A DNA stretch of 31,291 bases from the NCBI GenBank assembly GCA_017412025.1, contig JAFQOY010000152.1:1-31291 (forward strand), in the 5' to 3' direction. This DNA comes from Clostridia bacterium (GTDB lineage: Bacteria > Bacillota_A > Clostridia > Christensenellales > Aristaeellaceae). Below are positions 2,114 through 11,332 of this stretch, piece after piece. The notes under the pieces were generated by a model, which was given only the letters and a program-made list of their open reading frames with translations, had not been told where the DNA came from and did not search any database. Each line of letters opens with the position of its first letter. Within the stretch, counting starts at the first letter, position 1. The position numbers were made by a program, and so were the translations under genes.

Positions 2114-2948
2114 GTTTAAGCTGAGTTCTGAGAACTACTATTCCCGGGAAGCTGCTCAGGCATACTACTCCGCCAGTCAAATTAAGCAGTTTTGCGAGTG
2201 TTCATCCGCGGCGATGGCTGATCTGAGCGGCGATTATGTGCGAAAGAAGACGCCGGCGCTGCTGGTAGGCGGATACATCGATGCTCACTTTGCCGGGGAG
2301 ATGGACGAATTCAAGAAGGCGAATCCTGAAATCTTTACCAAGGTTGGTACGCTGAGAAGCGATTATGCCAAGGCTGAGGAGATCATTGAACGGATCGAAA
2401 GGGACGAACTGGCATGTGCTCTGATGGCCGGGGAAAAACAGAGGATCGTAACCGGAAAGATTGGCGGGCTTCCCTTCAAGGCAAAACTCGACGTCTGGCT
2501 TGATACAAAAGCTGCACAGAAGATCGCGCAGGATTACTCAGGAATGGTTGATTTGACATTCGCTGATGGGTGCATCGTCGATCTTAAAGTGATGAAGGAC
2601 TTTGAGCCGATGTTTCGTCAGGAAGAGGGCCGGCTCAGTTTCGTCGAGTATTGGCGGTACGACCTGCAAATGGCGATCTATCAGGAGCTGATGCGGCAGG
2701 AGATGGGAAGCAAAGTCCCGTGTTACATCCTTGCTGCGAGCAAGCAAGACCCGCCCGATTTGACGCTTGTGCAAATTCCACAAGAGCTTCTTGATTTCAA
2801 TTTGAAATGGTTGACAGATCGTCTACCAGATATCAATTTGATTAAAACCGGCGAAGAAGAGCCGGAGCCGTGCGGAAAGTGTGCATGGTGCCGGCAGAGC
2901 AAGAAACTAAACGGGCCGACTCTTCCGGGTACGCTGCTATGGGCATGA
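2106..2948 (+). CDS. PD-(D/E)XK nuclease, RecB/Cas4/DUF3799-like, possible Fe-S site
   Basis: 280 residues with the core of a RecB-type PD-(D/E)XK nuclease. D129 lies in FKAKLDVWLD, D159 and K161 in IVDLK, and YDLQMAIYQE (~185-194) is the typical motif with a conserved Q and Y. Cysteines at C30, C256, C259 and C262 (one N-terminal, three in a CxxCxxC near the end) are spaced as in nucleases that hold a 4Fe-4S cluster, such as Cas4 and AddB. Phage members (DUF3799) are thought to act as exonucleases in recombination or end processing. It overlaps the upstream gene by 8 bases and the ERCC4 nuclease by 4 to 10. The nuclease fold is well supported; the cluster is inference. Confidence 0.75.
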   Translation: MPEFKLSSENYYSREAAQAYYSASQIKQFCECSSAAMADLSGDYVRKKTPALLVGGYIDAHFAGEMDEFKKANPEIFTKVGTLRSDYAKAEEIIERIERDELACALMAGEKQRIVTGKIGGLPFKAKLDVWLDTKAAQKIAQDYSGMVDLTFADGCIVDLKVMKDFEPMFRQEEGRLSFVEYWRYDLQMAIYQELMRQEMGSKVPCYILAASKQDPPDLTLVQIPQELLDFNLKWLTDRLPDINLIKTGEEEPEPCGKCAWCRQSKKLNGPTLPGTLLWA

Positions 2949-3400
2949 TCTACGTGGATACGCGTGAAAAGCCGCACGCAATCAAGAAGATCCTCGCTTA
3001 CTTCGAGAAGAAGGGCGAGGAGGTTATTCGGAAAAAGCTGGATGTGGGCGACTACATGCTTTCCCTTGATGGAAAAATCAGCGTCGACCGAAAGCAGAAT
3101 CTTGCAGAAGTAGCCGTCAATCTTGGCAAGGACAGATTCAGATTCGGCAAGGAGTGCCAGAGAGCGAAAGACGCCGGCGTGCAGCTTGTAATCCTGGTGG
3201 AGCATGGCGGCCGAATCAAGGATATCGAGGACGTTCGGGCGTGGCAGAATCCGCGCCTGAGCATCTCCCCGTATGCTCTCAGCGGTCCGAGGATCTATCA
3301 GATCATGAAGGCGTTTGCGCTTAAATACGGCGTACAGTGGGAGTTCTGCTGTAAGCAATCGACAGGGAAACGGATTATCGAAATACTTAGCCGGGGTTAA
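2945..3400 (+). CDS. ERCC4-type (XPF/Mus81-like) nuclease
   Basis: About 151 residues forming a stand-alone ERCC4 nuclease domain. DTREK is at residues 5-9, VGDY at 34-37 and VDRKQ at 47-51, matching the GDx(n)ERK active-site signature with D in place of E. The strand VQLVILVEH follows. Such proteins cut branched or flapped DNA and could process recombination intermediates here. ATG 2945 gives a four-base ATGA overlap with the preceding stop; ATG 2939, two codons earlier in frame, is equally possible. There is no helix-hairpin-helix tail, so it is the catalytic domain alone. A small hairpin (CCGGG/CCCGG) spans its stop. Confidence 0.8.
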   Translation: MIYVDTREKPHAIKKILAYFEKKGEEVIRKKLDVGDYMLSLDGKISVDRKQNLAEVAVNLGKDRFRFGKECQRAKDAGVQLVILVEHGGRIKDIEDVRAWQNPRLSISPYALSGPRIYQIMKAFALKYGVQWEFCCKQSTGKRIIEILSRG

Positions 3401-3406
3401 ACCCGG
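3391..3406 (+). terminator. weak hairpin over the ERCC4-nuclease stop
   Basis: CCGGG GTTAAA CCCGG forms a perfect five-base stem with a six-base loop spanning the stop codon. No T run follows, so this is at best a pausing or processing hairpin that sets the 5' edge of the structured gap behind it. Confidence 0.3.
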
Positions 3407-3411
3407 CACAT

Positions 3412-3474
3412 GCGGAGTGCAGGTTTGCAACAATTGCGATGTTTGGCAAGCGGGTTCAATTCCCGCTGCTCCGC
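3412..3474 (+). ncRNA. tRNA-like element 1
   Basis: A 63-base unit closed by an eight-pair stem, GCGGAGTG with TGCTCCGC (last two pairs G-U). Directly inside the 3' strand is a canonical T-arm: stem GCGGG/CCCGC with loop TTCAATT. With A3449-T3467 the two helices can also be read as 7+6 pairs, 13 in all, as in bacterial tRNA-Sec rather than the usual 12. A short D-arm-like hairpin, TGCA-GGTT-TGCA (3418-3429), overlaps the acceptor. The anticodon region offers only TTGC/GCAA around an eight-base loop, so no anticodon can be called. No CCA is encoded. A true but aberrant tRNA, a decayed tRNA, or a tRNA mimic are all possible. Confidence 0.5.
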
Positions 3475-3482
3475 CTATTTAT

Positions 3483-3551
3483 GCGGGATGCAGGTTTGCA
3501 AGCGGCAAATTATCTCCGGCCAGTAAGCTGGTTCGATTCCAGCTGTCCCGC
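3483..3551 (+). ncRNA. tRNA-like element 2
   Basis: A 69-base unit, eight bases after element 1 and built on the same plan. The closing stem is GCGGGATG with TGTCCCGC. The T-arm is GCTGG/CCAGC with loop TTCGATT, extendable by A3526-T3544. The same 13-base string TGCAGGTTTGCAA occurs at 3489-3501. The middle (3501-3526) is six bases longer than in element 1 and does not form a five-pair anticodon stem with a seven-base loop. The 3' end continues TCT, so CCA is not encoded. Conservation of acceptor stem, T-arm and D-like hairpin while the stem bases change between copies (A-T replaced by G-C) suggests the structure is kept as RNA. Confidence 0.5.
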
Positions 3552-3568
3552 TCTCTTTCTTCATGGGG

Positions 3569-3648
3569 TCGCCCGGTGCTATCAGAGATATAAGGCAGCC
3601 GCTCACATCGCAGCATAGGGCCAGGGCTCGAGCCGGGCGATTCTTTTT
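3569..3648 (+). ncRNA. 72-base stem-closed element with T-rich tail
   Basis: TCGCCCGG (3569-3576) pairs perfectly with CCGGGCGA (3633-3640), extendable outward by G-U pairs, enclosing 56 bases. The span of 72 bases equals a tRNA body, but I cannot build D, anticodon or T arms. A small GGCTCGAGCC palindrome lies at its 3' side. The following ATTCTTTTTCT gives it some look of a terminator. It could be a third, more diverged relative of the two elements before it, a terminator for them, or a leader of the primase mRNA. Confidence 0.3.
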
Positions 3649-3666: not shown

Positions 3667-4245
3667 ATGGCAAAAAGCAGGCTGGATTATGCCGCAATCA
3701 TCAAAGAGCGCGTATCCGCGCGGGAGATGCTGGAAAGTGTCGGCATCCATGTAAACCAGCGAGGAATGGCGAAATGTCCATTTCATGCCGATAAAGATGC
3801 TTCACTCAAGGTATACAGCGATGCTCGCCGAGGGTGGCACTGCTATGGCTGCAATATTGGCGGTGATGCGACAGACTTTGCAATGATGTGGTATGGCATA
3901 TCCTTCAAAGAGGCGCTGTCAAGACTCAACGAGTCGTTTAATATTGGGCTGCCCATCGGAGAGCACGTCAAGTCGTCCGAGATGCGCGAGATTCGCGCCG
4001 ACATTGAGCGCCGCAGGAAGGAACGAGAGGCAAAGAAAAAGGCCTGTGACGAGGCTGAGGCGGCTTACTGGGCGGCTTTTGAGAGGTGGCTTGATAATGT
4101 GCAGACCATAAGATTCGAGCGGCCCAAGAGCCCACAGGAGTCGATGAGCGAGGCGTTTGTATATGCCGTGACCCATAGCGCGGAGATACTGGACAACTTA
4201 CAAATCACGGAAGAAAGGTGGTGCCTTGCCCGTGCCGCAGGATAA
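3667..4245 (+). CDS. DNA primase zinc-finger (CHC2-type) protein
   Basis: 192 residues. The N-terminal ~85 carry the DnaG-type CHC2 zinc-binding domain: C37-PF-H40 with the ADKDASLKVY strand, then WHCYGC with C59 and C62, then GGDATDFAMMW. In DnaG this domain binds the single-stranded template and helps choose the priming site. The rest is a charged helical tail (RRKEREAKKK) with no TOPRIM catalytic domain, so the protein is half a primase. The catalytic part may lie in the adjacent gene product or elsewhere. AAAGGAG precedes the ATG. The end overlaps the next gene by 20 bases. A replication-initiation role is inferred from family and context. Confidence 0.8.
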   Translation: MAKSRLDYAAIIKERVSAREMLESVGIHVNQRGMAKCPFHADKDASLKVYSDARRGWHCYGCNIGGDATDFAMMWYGISFKEALSRLNESFNIGLPIGEHVKSSEMREIRADIERRRKEREAKKKACDEAEAAYWAAFERWLDNVQTIRFERPKSPQESMSEAFVYAVTHSAEILDNLQITEERWCLARAAG

Positions 4246-9455: not shown

Positions 9456-9917
9456 ATGGCTTTTGAACCTAAGCTGACTGAATACCAGAGAGCAGCTATT
9501 TTTGAGAAATGTCTTAAAGGAGCGAAGACTGTAGACCTTGCAAAAGAGTACGACGTCAGCGAAACGACTATTCGCGTCATCAAGTATGACAAGAAGCGCC
9601 TTGCCGCCGCGCAGGCTTCGGTTGATGCGCATCAGATGTTCGCAAGACTTCGGATTCATGAGGGCGCTTTGAAAGGCATTGAAAAGGAACACGAAATCCT
9701 TGATCGCGAAGTGCCGGAAGGGGATAAGGGTACGAGCCTTCTGTACCTGCAGCATCAGGTCGCTGCCGGCATGATGGACCGTGATGGACTCAAAGCGCCG
9801 GATAAGAGCGAGCAGAAGCTTGAGATTTCCTTCGGTTGTGATGGCCCTGATCTGGGAATGCCGGAAGAGAACGCTCAGCCTGATGAAGATGAGGAGCAGG
9901 AGGATGAAGAGCCGTGA
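9456..9917 (+). CDS. terS: small terminase subunit (putative), HTH protein
   Basis: 153 residues. The N-terminal ~55 hold a helix-turn-helix (EYQRAAIFEKCLKG, then TVDLAKEYDVSETTIRVIKYD) of the type that recognises packaging sites. A central helical part follows, probably for oligomerisation, and the tail is strongly acidic (DEDEEQEDEEP). It directly precedes the large terminase, which defines the assignment. ATG 9456 has GGAGGG six bases upstream; GTG 9450 in frame would bury that site. A plain HTH regulator is the alternative. Confidence 0.7.
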   Translation: MAFEPKLTEYQRAAIFEKCLKGAKTVDLAKEYDVSETTIRVIKYDKKRLAAAQASVDAHQMFARLRIHEGALKGIEKEHEILDREVPEGDKGTSLLYLQHQVAAGMMDRDGLKAPDKSEQKLEISFGCDGPDLGMPEENAQPDEDEEQEDEEP

Positions 9918-11332
9918 GGCTCCTGATGGATTACAGTCCCACGGACAAGCAAAGGTTGTTTCATTCCAGCACGGCCAATGAGATTCTCTATGGTGGTGCT
10001 GCCGGAGGCGGCAAGAGCTATGCGATCTGCTGGGATGCGTTCATGAGGTGTTCTAAGTATCCCGGAACCAAGGCGTACCTGTTCCGTCGAACGTATCCCG
10101 AGCTCAAGCAGACCCTGATTGCAAAGATGCTTCAAATCGTGCCGAAAGCACTTGGTAAGTACAGGGCCAGCGATTATGTGATGTACCTTTATAACGGCAG
10201 CGAAATCCACTTCTGTCACCTGAGCGACGAAGGCGAGGGCCTTCTCAAGTATCAGGGTGCAGAAATCCACTGGCTCTATTTCGATGAGCTGACGCATTTC
10301 ACGCAGTCTATGTACGAATACATCCGCACTCGACTGCGCGCAGAGAAGAAGCTTGGCATCCGACCGGTTGTCCGGTGCGCCAGTAACCCCGGCGGGCCTG
10401 GCCATAGCTGGGTGAAGGCTTACTTTGTGGACAGCACGGACGTTGGAAAGAAGACCGTCGAACGCGAAGTCACAAACAAAAACCAGAAGACCGGCAAGGT
10501 CACGAAAAAAAGGATCACCGTTCAATATATACCGGCAACGGTGGACGATAATCCGTATATTACGGACGATTACAGATTCGAGCTTGAGCAGAAGCCTCCA
10601 AAGCTGCGAGACGCGCTTCTGCTTGGCAAGTGGGACTCTTTCGAGGGGCAGGCGTTCCCTGAGTTTGAAAACGACCCGGAACATTACGAGGACGGGCTGT
10701 GGACGCATGTTATTAAACCGTTTGACATTCCACTGCACTGGCCGCGCTATGTGAGCTTTGACCACGGTTTCTCAAGACCGTTTTCGTTTGGCGTGTGGGC
10801 GGTAGATGAAGAAGGGCGGGTATATCGGTACAAAGAGTGCTACGGGTGCAAACCGGGTGAACCTAATACGGGGCTTAAGATTGATCCATCAGAGATAGGG
10901 CAGATGCTGGGCGACCTGATGGAACCAGAATTCAAAGAGGGTTTGCGGCCAAGAGGCATAGCAGATCCGGCGATCTGGGATAGGAGCCGAGGCCCAAGCG
11001 TGGAAGAGCAGATCCGCACTGCGTTTGGCGGCGTCATCTTCCATAAGGGCGATAACACCAGAATGGCGGGAAAGATGCAGATGCATACGCGCCTGAAATT
11101 CGACAAGGATGGCAGACCGATGCTGTATGTGTTCAACACTTGCCGGGATTTCATACGCACAATTCCATCACTGGCGTATGATGCGCGAAAGGTCGAAGAT
11201 ATCGACACGGCCGGCGAAGATCATATTTACGACGAGACACGGTATTTTCTGATGAGCAGGCCGATTCCTCCCAAAAAGGGAGTAGAGAAGCCAAAGAAGC
11301 GACCGGAAATGAAGTACCCGCTGAACGGGTAA
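9914..11332 (+). CDS. terL: terminase large subunit
   Basis: 472 residues, ATP-driven packaging motor and nuclease. Walker A GGAAGGGKS is at residues 27-35; a WLYFDELTHF Walker B with D124/E125; a CASNPGGPGHSWV coupling segment (~156-168); and a C-terminal RNase-H-like nuclease with SFDHGF (~278-283) and IADPAIWD (~350-357). Length is typical. The start overlaps the small terminase stop as GTGA, ten bases after GGAGG; ATG 9926 is the alternative. It moves DNA into the prohead through the portal encoded next. Confidence 0.93.
   Translation: MRLLMDYSPTDKQRLFHSSTANEILYGGAAGGGKSYAICWDAFMRCSKYPGTKAYLFRRTYPELKQTLIAKMLQIVPKALGKYRASDYVMYLYNGSEIHFCHLSDEGEGLLKYQGAEIHWLYFDELTHFTQSMYEYIRTRLRAEKKLGIRPVVRCASNPGGPGHSWVKAYFVDSTDVGKKTVEREVTNKNQKTGKVTKKRITVQYIPATVDDNPYITDDYRFELEQKPPKLRDALLLGKWDSFEGQAFPEFENDPEHYEDGLWTHVIKPFDIPLHWPRYVSFDHGFSRPFSFGVWAVDEEGRVYRYKECYGCKPGEPNTGLKIDPSEIGQMLGDLMEPEFKEGLRPRGIADPAIWDRSRGPSVEEQIRTAFGGVIFHKGDNTRMAGKMQMHTRLKFDKDGRPMLYVFNTCRDFIRTIPSLAYDARKVEDIDTAGEDHIYDETRYFLMSRPIPPKKGVEKPKKRPEMKYPLNG

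Follow-up and report, generated by a model that had tools for sequence, protein, structure and literature searches.

Tandem tRNA-like units in an uncultured phage point to a probable phage RNA family built on the upper half of tRNA

What are two short units that stand in tandem between two phage genes and possess the acceptor stem and T-arm of a tRNA, yet offer no standard anticodon arm? The stretch of DNA that raises this question (31,291 nucleotides, hereafter the window) is that of a tailed phage, with genes for terminase, P22-like portal and head proteins, an exonuclease, an ERCC4-type nuclease, a DnaG-type primase, a primase/helicase and SSB. The host-named phages nearest to its primase/helicase infect Anaerostipes, [Ruminococcus] gnavus and similar bacteria (identity 36.5-39%), the closest matches of its capsid are phage contigs of human faeces (identity at most 45%), and a protein search placed homologues of its primase at 76-92% identity on contigs of 1.0-4.1 kb. 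Both units lie between the stop codon (3400) of the ERCC4-type nuclease gene directly upstream (2870-3400, plus strand; PHROG 3490, 4.8e-31; Pfam ERCC4, 2.3e-07) and the DnaG-type zinc-ribbon primase gene downstream (3667-4245, plus strand; Pfam PF01807, 5.5e-16), all on the same strand. A preliminary description had suggested, among other possibilities, tRNA mimics or processing signals, and both are judged plausible in what follows.

Unit 1 (3412-3474, plus strand, 63 nt) opens with the acceptor 5' strand GCGGAGT (3412-3418), which pairs with the 3' strand GCTCCGC (3468-3474), and continues with a mini D-arm, GCAGGTTTGCA (3419-3429), consisting of a GC/GC stem around the GG-containing loop AGGTTT and conforming to the family motif GCAGGTTNGCA; a variable middle that folds only weakly (3430-3448) stands where the anticodon arm would be, and is followed by the T-arm AGCGGG-TTCAATT-CCCGCT (3449-3467). 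Unit 2 (3483-3551, plus strand, 69 nt) pairs GCGGGAT (3483-3489) with GTCCCGC (3545-3551), repeats the mini D-arm GCAGGTTTGCA (3490-3500), and has a variable middle in which no anticodon arm was drawn (3501-3525) before the T-arm AGCTGG-TTCGATT-CCAGCT (3526-3544). CCA is encoded in neither, the next bases being C3475 and T3552, and covariance model R1, with each unit in its training set, scores them at 46.2 and 53.5 bits. The units share the 13-mer TGCAGGTTTGCAA, and both possess the 7-bp acceptor stem, T-arm and T-loop TTCRANY of a canonical tRNA together with a D-stem of 2-3 bp. Three stem pairs differ between them, each on both sides: acceptor pair 5 (A-T in unit 1, G-C in unit 2), acceptor pair 6 (G-C, A-T) and T-arm pair 4 (G-C, T-A). 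The preliminary description is thus borne out on the placing of the units, 71 bases apart start to start, on the middles of 30 and 36 bases (mini D-arm included), on the T-loops TTCAATT and TTCGATT, and on the total of 13 pairs in each, whether counted as seven acceptor pairs (the last a T-G) and six T-arm pairs or as 8+5. Its view that stem differences with pairing kept speak for selection on structure agrees with the three double-sided differences and with covariation in other phages. A scan of both strands of the window for seven acceptor pairs (at least six of them Watson-Crick), a T-stem of at least 5 bp, TTCRANT and a middle of 24-45 bases returned two structures, whereas the mean number over 200 dinucleotide shuffles was 0.005 and no shuffle had more than one. 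Folding z values were -2.85 and -1.98 for the single units and -1.81 for the pair.

The claim that a standard anticodon arm is missing holds for unit 2, in which none can be drawn by eye, and needs qualifying for unit 1. There the canonical 5-bp arm with a 7-base loop is replaced by a weak 4-bp arm seen by eye (AACA/TGTT, loop ATTGCGA, with a U at the U33 place); the energy model favours another pairing. At 5%, neither middle folds beyond shuffles (15/200 and 78/200). ARAGORN called no tRNA or tmRNA anywhere in the window, and Rfam 15 returned nothing at the units even at E 5, its sole entry in the window being a sub-threshold match far off at 9881-9928. One could also read the units as working tRNAs of minimal size, decoding by means of a reduced anticodon arm like some of those in animal mitochondria. 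Such tRNAs would accommodate the 4-bp arm, 7-base loop and U33 of unit 1, and likewise the 5-bp stem with a 7-base loop visible by eye in L100, a member of the family described below. This reading is very improbable, since no such arm is seen in unit 2 or, by eye, in most other members, and since ARAGORN is silent on the members in the window and in loci L062-L105, as is Rfam on those in 13 other scanned loci, a doubtful match at L224 aside.

The immediate surroundings of the units also contain possible structure. A hairpin, GCCGGG-GTTAAA-CCCGGC (3390-3407, plus strand), is found in both the MFE and the centroid fold 4 bases 5' of unit 1, and its loop includes the stop codon of the nuclease gene (3398-3400); taken alone it is not beyond chance, as 9/40 shuffles are equally good. 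On the other side of the units, 5' of the primase gene, a long stem followed by TTTTT (3565-3644) could be a terminator. Hairpin, units and terminator-like stem might together form a larger regulatory RNA, for example an attenuator, and the place of the long stem before the primase gene would suit such an element; we find this scarcely credible, because the stretch 3565-3644 folds no better than shuffles (36/200 equally good), and neither does the whole region (30/200).

Whether the units belong to a wider family was examined on viral contigs. No match came from a strict pattern that combined the two halves of the window motif. The mini D-arm of both window units, GCAGGTTNGC, itself served to find the family: a pattern of GCAGGTTTGCA, then 16-45 bases, then TTCRANTCC matched 44 stretches (L-numbers denote loci), many of them with the same plan of a 5' acceptor strand, GCAGGTTTGCA, a middle that is often a hairpin, a T-arm and a 3' acceptor strand. 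Two further scans with a relaxed D motif gave 102 and 84 stretches. In the first, 14 of 66 distinct matches had at least six acceptor pairs, and these carried GCAGGTTTGCA (nine), GCAGGTTAGCA (one), GCAGGTTAACA (one) or other strings (three: by sequence, one is part of a normal tRNA-Ala, and the remaining two are L132 and L156); the nine and two more keep GCAGGTT. In the second, at least five acceptor pairs were present in 35 of 66 distinct matches, a few of which look like chance, with GCAGGTTTGCA in 16, GCAGGTTCGCA in 11, GCAGGTTAGCA in two, GCAGGTTGGCA in two and single variants in four. These counts define the D motif as GC-AGGTTN-GC, a two-pair stem with a GG loop and one free position, although its conservation is partly built in, the family having been found through it. 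By analogy with G18 and G19 of tRNA, the GG of this loop may meet the T-loop. A separate notion took GTTNGCA for an alanine anticodon loop in which GC is fixed and the wobble base is free. It was dropped, as no member was seen to form the stem; the coincidence is odd.

The test least open to circularity concerns the acceptor stem, because matches were chosen by the D motif and T-arm only, with the acceptor left unused: 33 of 38 distinct matches have at least five acceptor pairs, whereas with the 3' sides swapped among the 38 an average of 7.8 did so, and never more than 15 over 2000 trials. Some of the 38 come from related phages; counted by distinct 5' string, 21 of 26 pair. A covariance model was built from 18 sequences, both window units included, and gave 34 matches in 43 chosen loci, training rows counted, with nothing in 11 loci. 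In its alignment, which is fitted to the structure and retains one doubtful row that is without the D motif (L068:9200-9248), 93.5% of 447 cells are paired against 64.1% when shuffled, and double-sided changes occur in 133 cells against 41.0 when shuffled and at most 46 in slid controls; sliding the partners by 1-3 columns lowers pairing to 28-47%. Two of the five measures separate the alignment from shuffles less well: the number of pairs with a double change (9 against 8.6, with 313/500 shuffles reaching 9) and further pair types (33 against 28.2, with 12/500 reaching 33). Double changes fall in all six acceptor pairs and in three of the five T pairs; the search pattern itself held the other two constant. 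The preliminary description had looked for covariation of both helices among relatives as support, and other phages show it. In the D-arm two pairs are invariant and the third is broken in 14/32 rows. The first acceptor pair is GC in 14, CG in 10, GU in three, UA in three and AU in one; compared with unit 2, L084 has two stem pairs changed and no more, each by a compensated double change.

Several candidates were set aside as chance or doubtful and are not counted as members (L082, L090, L201, L223, L224, L230 and L241), although L223, L224, L230 and L241 are within the 35 matches above and L082, L201 and L223 are within the 38, as failures; L187 is a member by script, but the model at 1e-4 does not include it. 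In 398 + 398 cellular genomes, a sample too small beside the viral collection to establish that cells lack the element, pattern searches gave one match, by sequence an ordinary tRNA, and the covariance model, run on 398 genomes, gave 12 candidates in every genome listed and so does not discriminate there. Comparison of the window region or single elements with named phages by blastn gave short matches, mostly to the T-arms of ordinary tRNAs or to unrelated stretches.

The conservation pattern bears on two further explanations. Decaying remnants of phage tRNA genes might be expected among tRNA genes, where some members do lie; however, decay would lose the stems, whereas here stem changes are compensated, and different phages share the unusual D motif, so that we give this reading next to no weight. 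The second holds that a stable tRNA-like RNA acts as a decoy by occupying a host factor that binds tRNA, such as a processing or CCA enzyme, an elongation factor, SmpB, or a defence enzyme directed at the elbow or acceptor. Retention and covariation of the elbow and acceptor half would suit a decoy, as would a D motif that is conserved in sequence beyond shape alone, but the first acceptor pair varies, which makes a single protein reading the acceptor end unlikely; on the whole a decoy appears improbable, if deserving of attention. The version in the preliminary description, a bait for anticodon nucleases, is a weak one because the loop that such nucleases cut is missing.

By script the family has 32 members, both window units included, all of about 55-83 nt. 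By the script's count the 30 members outside the window have 11 (22 members), 12 (six) or 14 (two) acceptor and T pairs, and the link to tRNA-Sec that the preliminary description drew from 13 pairs is not supported. CCA is encoded in four of the 32 (L084, L066, L068 and L203). In L084 the end is ACCA (discriminator A plus CCA), followed by a sub-threshold YrlA-like match, considered below, and a tRNA-Thr. A second group (L066/L075, L068 and L203) lies among phage tRNA genes, encodes CCA and shares CAGGCGTC in its middle loops. A compact clade of 21 members (55-66 nt, with copies in further contigs) consists of L069, L072, L074, L077, L080, L081, L085, L089, L094, L103, L104, L202, L204, L211, L216, L217, L229, L236, L248, L249 and L254, 14 of which have GGRGAAG in the middle, and a last group comprises L071, L187, L194, L207 and L252, with L100 added by the model. 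Across the family the folding of 17/32 middles surpasses that of 95% of mononucleotide shuffles; the window units are among the 15/32 that fail at 5%.

Some observations were made beside these. A Shine-Dalgarno-like role of the GGRGAAG loops was considered and found no support; the middle loop of L194, TTATTCCTCCATTCCCC, contains TCCTCC, which resembles the anti-Shine-Dalgarno sequence, whereas the compact clade has purine loops instead. Directly 5' of the element-like unit of L187, near the gene for the terminase small subunit, another tRNA-like unit with a short middle can be drawn by eye (TAGTCAG ... CTGACTA), a second possible tandem case. In phages that carry the element ARAGORN calls an untyped tRNA whose anticodon has two bases (tc) at L074:3415-3490, L076:2694-2769, L080:7982-8057, L099:2778-2853 and L073:2173-2248, in the first three just downstream of the element. 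L203 also contains a group I intron (9768-10016; Rfam, 80.5 bits), which overlaps the frame end of the gene for the terminase large subunit.

A scan of chosen reading frames around nine compact-clade loci places the element after a gene end, near DNA-metabolism genes: upstream stand an exonuclease (L069, L204), phrog_870 directly (L077) or, further off, a methyltransferase (L077, L085), and downstream a polymerase/primase (L077, L236) or a methyltransferase (L069, L080, L089, L103, L202). Many elements have a hairpin just before them. For the best hairpin ending at most 8 bases from the acceptor, the mean over the 32 members is -14.4 kcal/mol against -9.4 for shuffles and -9.4 for a downstream control, and the best hairpin reaches -8 in 30/32 upstream against 20/32 downstream; only five of the 32 beat all 40 shuffles, none is found upstream of L066 or L194, and only 1-2 bases separate the hairpin from the acceptor in nine members of the compact clade.

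In mitochondria tRNAs punctuate transcripts, and mascRNA ends MALAT1. In a like manner the fold might act in cis as a cutting or 3'-end signal within a polycistronic phage message, the excised piece being waste. The window units follow a stop codon and stand between the ERCC4 nuclease and primase genes, the compact-clade elements likewise follow a gene end near DNA-metabolism genes, and the upstream hairpins would cap a new 3' end. Against this, L066/L075, L068 and L203 lie among tRNA genes and not between messages, and a pure cut site would leave unexplained both the tandem units and the shared middle loops (GGRGAAG, CAGGCGTC and, in the mycobacteriophages considered next, CGAYAWCACCG). We consider such a signal a serious though unlikely alternative.

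L207 could be identified as Mycobacterium phage SkiPole, with 100% identity along all 4354 bases of the locus. A query made of this element and its upstream hairpin has matches in 395 mycobacteriophage records, duplicate deposits counted; 251 records, Bxb1 among them, cover 80% of the query or more. The phages are classed by genus in the records. Hairpin and element are present in 13/13 records read (SkiPole, Bxb1 and 11 others, not a random draw). The fetched stretches of these records carry no RNA annotation; a hypothetical gene, gp79, overlaps the element in Bxb1. The Bxb1 element consists of GAGCAG, GCAGGTTCGC, a middle stem TCAGC/GCTGA, the T-arm CCGTG-TTCGATT-CACGG and CTGCTC. Model scores are 34.2 bits for SkiPole, 24.7 for Bxb1 and 18.1-24.7 for the others, and since 18.1-24.7 is near the scores of ordinary tRNAs the membership of the low-scoring mycobacteriophages rests on their alignment with SkiPole. 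The elements of SkiPole and Bxb1 differ, with compensation, in the middle stem, one acceptor pair and one T pair, while the middle loop CGAYAWCACCG is retained and the upstream hairpin is almost identical; within Bxb1-like phages that hairpin varies between AGCC/GGCT and AGTC/GACT.

The upstream hairpin also occurs in other settings. A motif of about 40 bases, GAGCCGTTGMACGTGGCTACGACGAG, is some 90% identical between Fromanvirus and Kostyavirus mycobacteriophages, and in two Kostyavirus records read, Quink (L263:1501-1542) and Youngblood (L267:301-342), it is present without the element, with no annotated feature beneath it. In PainterBoy (L271:365-453) the motif, as CTGAGCCGTAGAACGTGGCTACGAC, lies inside a tRNA-like frame in the anticodon-arm position, whereas in Bxb1-type phages it precedes the element. 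The PainterBoy frame has six acceptor pairs (GGGTAG/CTACCC), five T pairs and TTCGATT; its D region is without GCAGGTT and reads GCGCTGGCGC by eye, its score of 17.6 bits is no better than that of ordinary tRNAs, and the motif match covers 26 bases at 92% (blastn, E 0.4). In the compact clade GGRGAAG is found not in the middle but in the loop of the upstream hairpin in L248 and L104, in both places in L211, and in neither in five members. PainterBoy may thus be regarded as one fair case of a hairpin changing place, an apparent move, and GGRGAAG as one suggestive case; together they suggest that the hairpin does the work and is carried by the tRNA half as a scaffold, although a change of module draws mainly on PainterBoy. 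Pseudomonas phage ventosus was rejected as a relative, having by eye an ordinary anticodon arm (5 bp, 7-base loop).

How firmly the element is tied to its neighbours was asked of loci related through the flanking genes (L001-L061: nuclease relatives, 10; primase, 1, 16 and, in genomes, 33; primase/helicase, 1), at 26-51% protein identity. No such element was found by a script over all of them, which required seven acceptor pairs and which six-pair members could thus escape, by the covariance model in 26, where it found only fragments of ordinary tRNAs, in L003, by ARAGORN in 23, or by reading of the gap in eight. The element is therefore not kept with its neighbours at that distance and seems to be gained or lost easily. 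A different sequence here in relatives, without covarying stems, was named in the preliminary description as an argument against its reading; this holds in part, at these loci, while the stems covary in other phages.

The best reading of the fold, its covariation and its spread is a new family of phage tRNA-like RNAs. We lean, short of calling it probable, towards RNAs that keep the upper half of tRNA and are matured by host enzymes into a stable scaffold for an exchangeable hairpin. The acceptor, T-arm and elbow are the features read by RNase P, RNase Z, the CCA enzyme and elongation factor Tu, and the lost half is what the ribosome and most synthetases read. Since the retained parts are those of maturation and the lost parts those of decoding, our view is that the RNAs are made and stabilised by tRNA maturation, probably by the tRNA-processing enzymes themselves, and do not decode. 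Once expressed, the units would fold within the phage transcript, retaining the acceptor stem, the T-arm and a tiny D-arm whose GG could dock on the T-loop, with the lower tRNA half replaced by a variable stretch that is a hairpin in many members. The acceptor/T-arm half would be what host RNase P and RNase Z recognise, with cuts at either end of it, and a CCA tail would be added where none is encoded. The product would be a stable small RNA in which the tRNA half serves as scaffold and processing signal, while the exchangeable hairpin, with any target that it may have, would sit in the anticodon-arm position or just upstream; in Bxb1 or SkiPole the RNA would be of about 60-62 nt, starting at GAGCAGGCAGG and with the discriminator plus CCA as its end. 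In the window a cut would also split the transcript into a nuclease message that ends on its own hairpin and a primase message. The shared loops and the moving hairpin favour the product as the purpose, whereas the operon position in the window favours the cut, and the hairpins that end 1-2 bases from the acceptor in nine compact members speak against simple RNase P cutting there. A bolder proposal is that phages have evolved a natural tRNA scaffold, a portable upper-half cassette that recruits host maturation while effector hairpins move between the upstream and the anticodon-arm position; this may be so but is rather doubtful, the PainterBoy match at E 0.4 having lowered its standing.

By title and the start of the abstract, no open paper searched, among them PMC7609411, PMC7157519 and PMC4810235, was found to describe such phage RNAs; the original Bxb1 genome paper falls outside this scope and may note the element. 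PMC7157519 reports a different non-coding RNA, beside parABS in cluster A phages, and no word beginning with tRNA occurs in its main text. ARAGORN and Rfam, where run, miss a family that is nevertheless present in about 250 mycobacteriophage records including Bxb1, so that an oddity of an uncultured phage becomes testable in a standard laboratory system. It may reveal a new phage use of host tRNA maturation, and it is a warning that seemingly degenerate tRNAs of phage arrays may be RNAs with a function other than decoding.

To our knowledge few tRNA-like RNAs without an anticodon arm are known, namely tmRNA, Y RNAs and some eukaryotic examples. The tRNA-like domain of tmRNA (SsrA) has another helix in place of the anticodon arm and a reduced D region. 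The abstract of PMC3929946 speaks of the 'upper half of tRNA', and an upper half without an anticodon arm is likewise what the phage family presents. The window units differ in having no alanine G3:U70, their third acceptor pair being G-C in both, and no tmRNA call by ARAGORN or Rfam, and the phage members are of about 55-83 nt, with no tag frame known. The bacterial Y RNA YrlA (RF02553) is a tRNA mimic with T-arm and D-arm that is circularly permuted, the T-arm coming before the D-arm; the phage family has the order acceptor-D-T-acceptor, and the window has no YrlA match. The sub-threshold match that immediately follows the encoded CCA of L084 (5482-5537; 35.6 bits, with a gathering score of 69) has the order T-arm, acceptor-like hairpin, D-arm, as in a permuted tRNA. 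The window units equal bacterial tRNA-Sec in their total of 13 acceptor and T pairs, which can be read as 8/5 or as 7/6, the other members having mostly 11-12; the units are without its 6-bp D-stem, long variable arm and UCA anticodon, and Rfam gives no match there. At L224 (6840-6961, minus strand) a GCAGGTT-pattern match overlaps a sub-threshold Rfam match to tRNA-Sec (29.7 bits against a gathering score of 47); it fails the covariance model as a family member and could be an odd phage tRNA-Sec-like RNA. The mascRNA and menRNA and the 3' tRNA-like structures of plant viruses are tRNA-like folds that act as processing or end signals and not in decoding; they are eukaryotic and of other sequence, and for the phage RNAs a comparable function is what we infer. 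Finally, sidearm-lacking mitochondrial tRNAs, which have lost an arm, still meet processing enzymes, according to PMC7609411. Those tRNAs lose the D-arm, the T-arm or both and keep the anticodon arm, and the phage family is the reverse.
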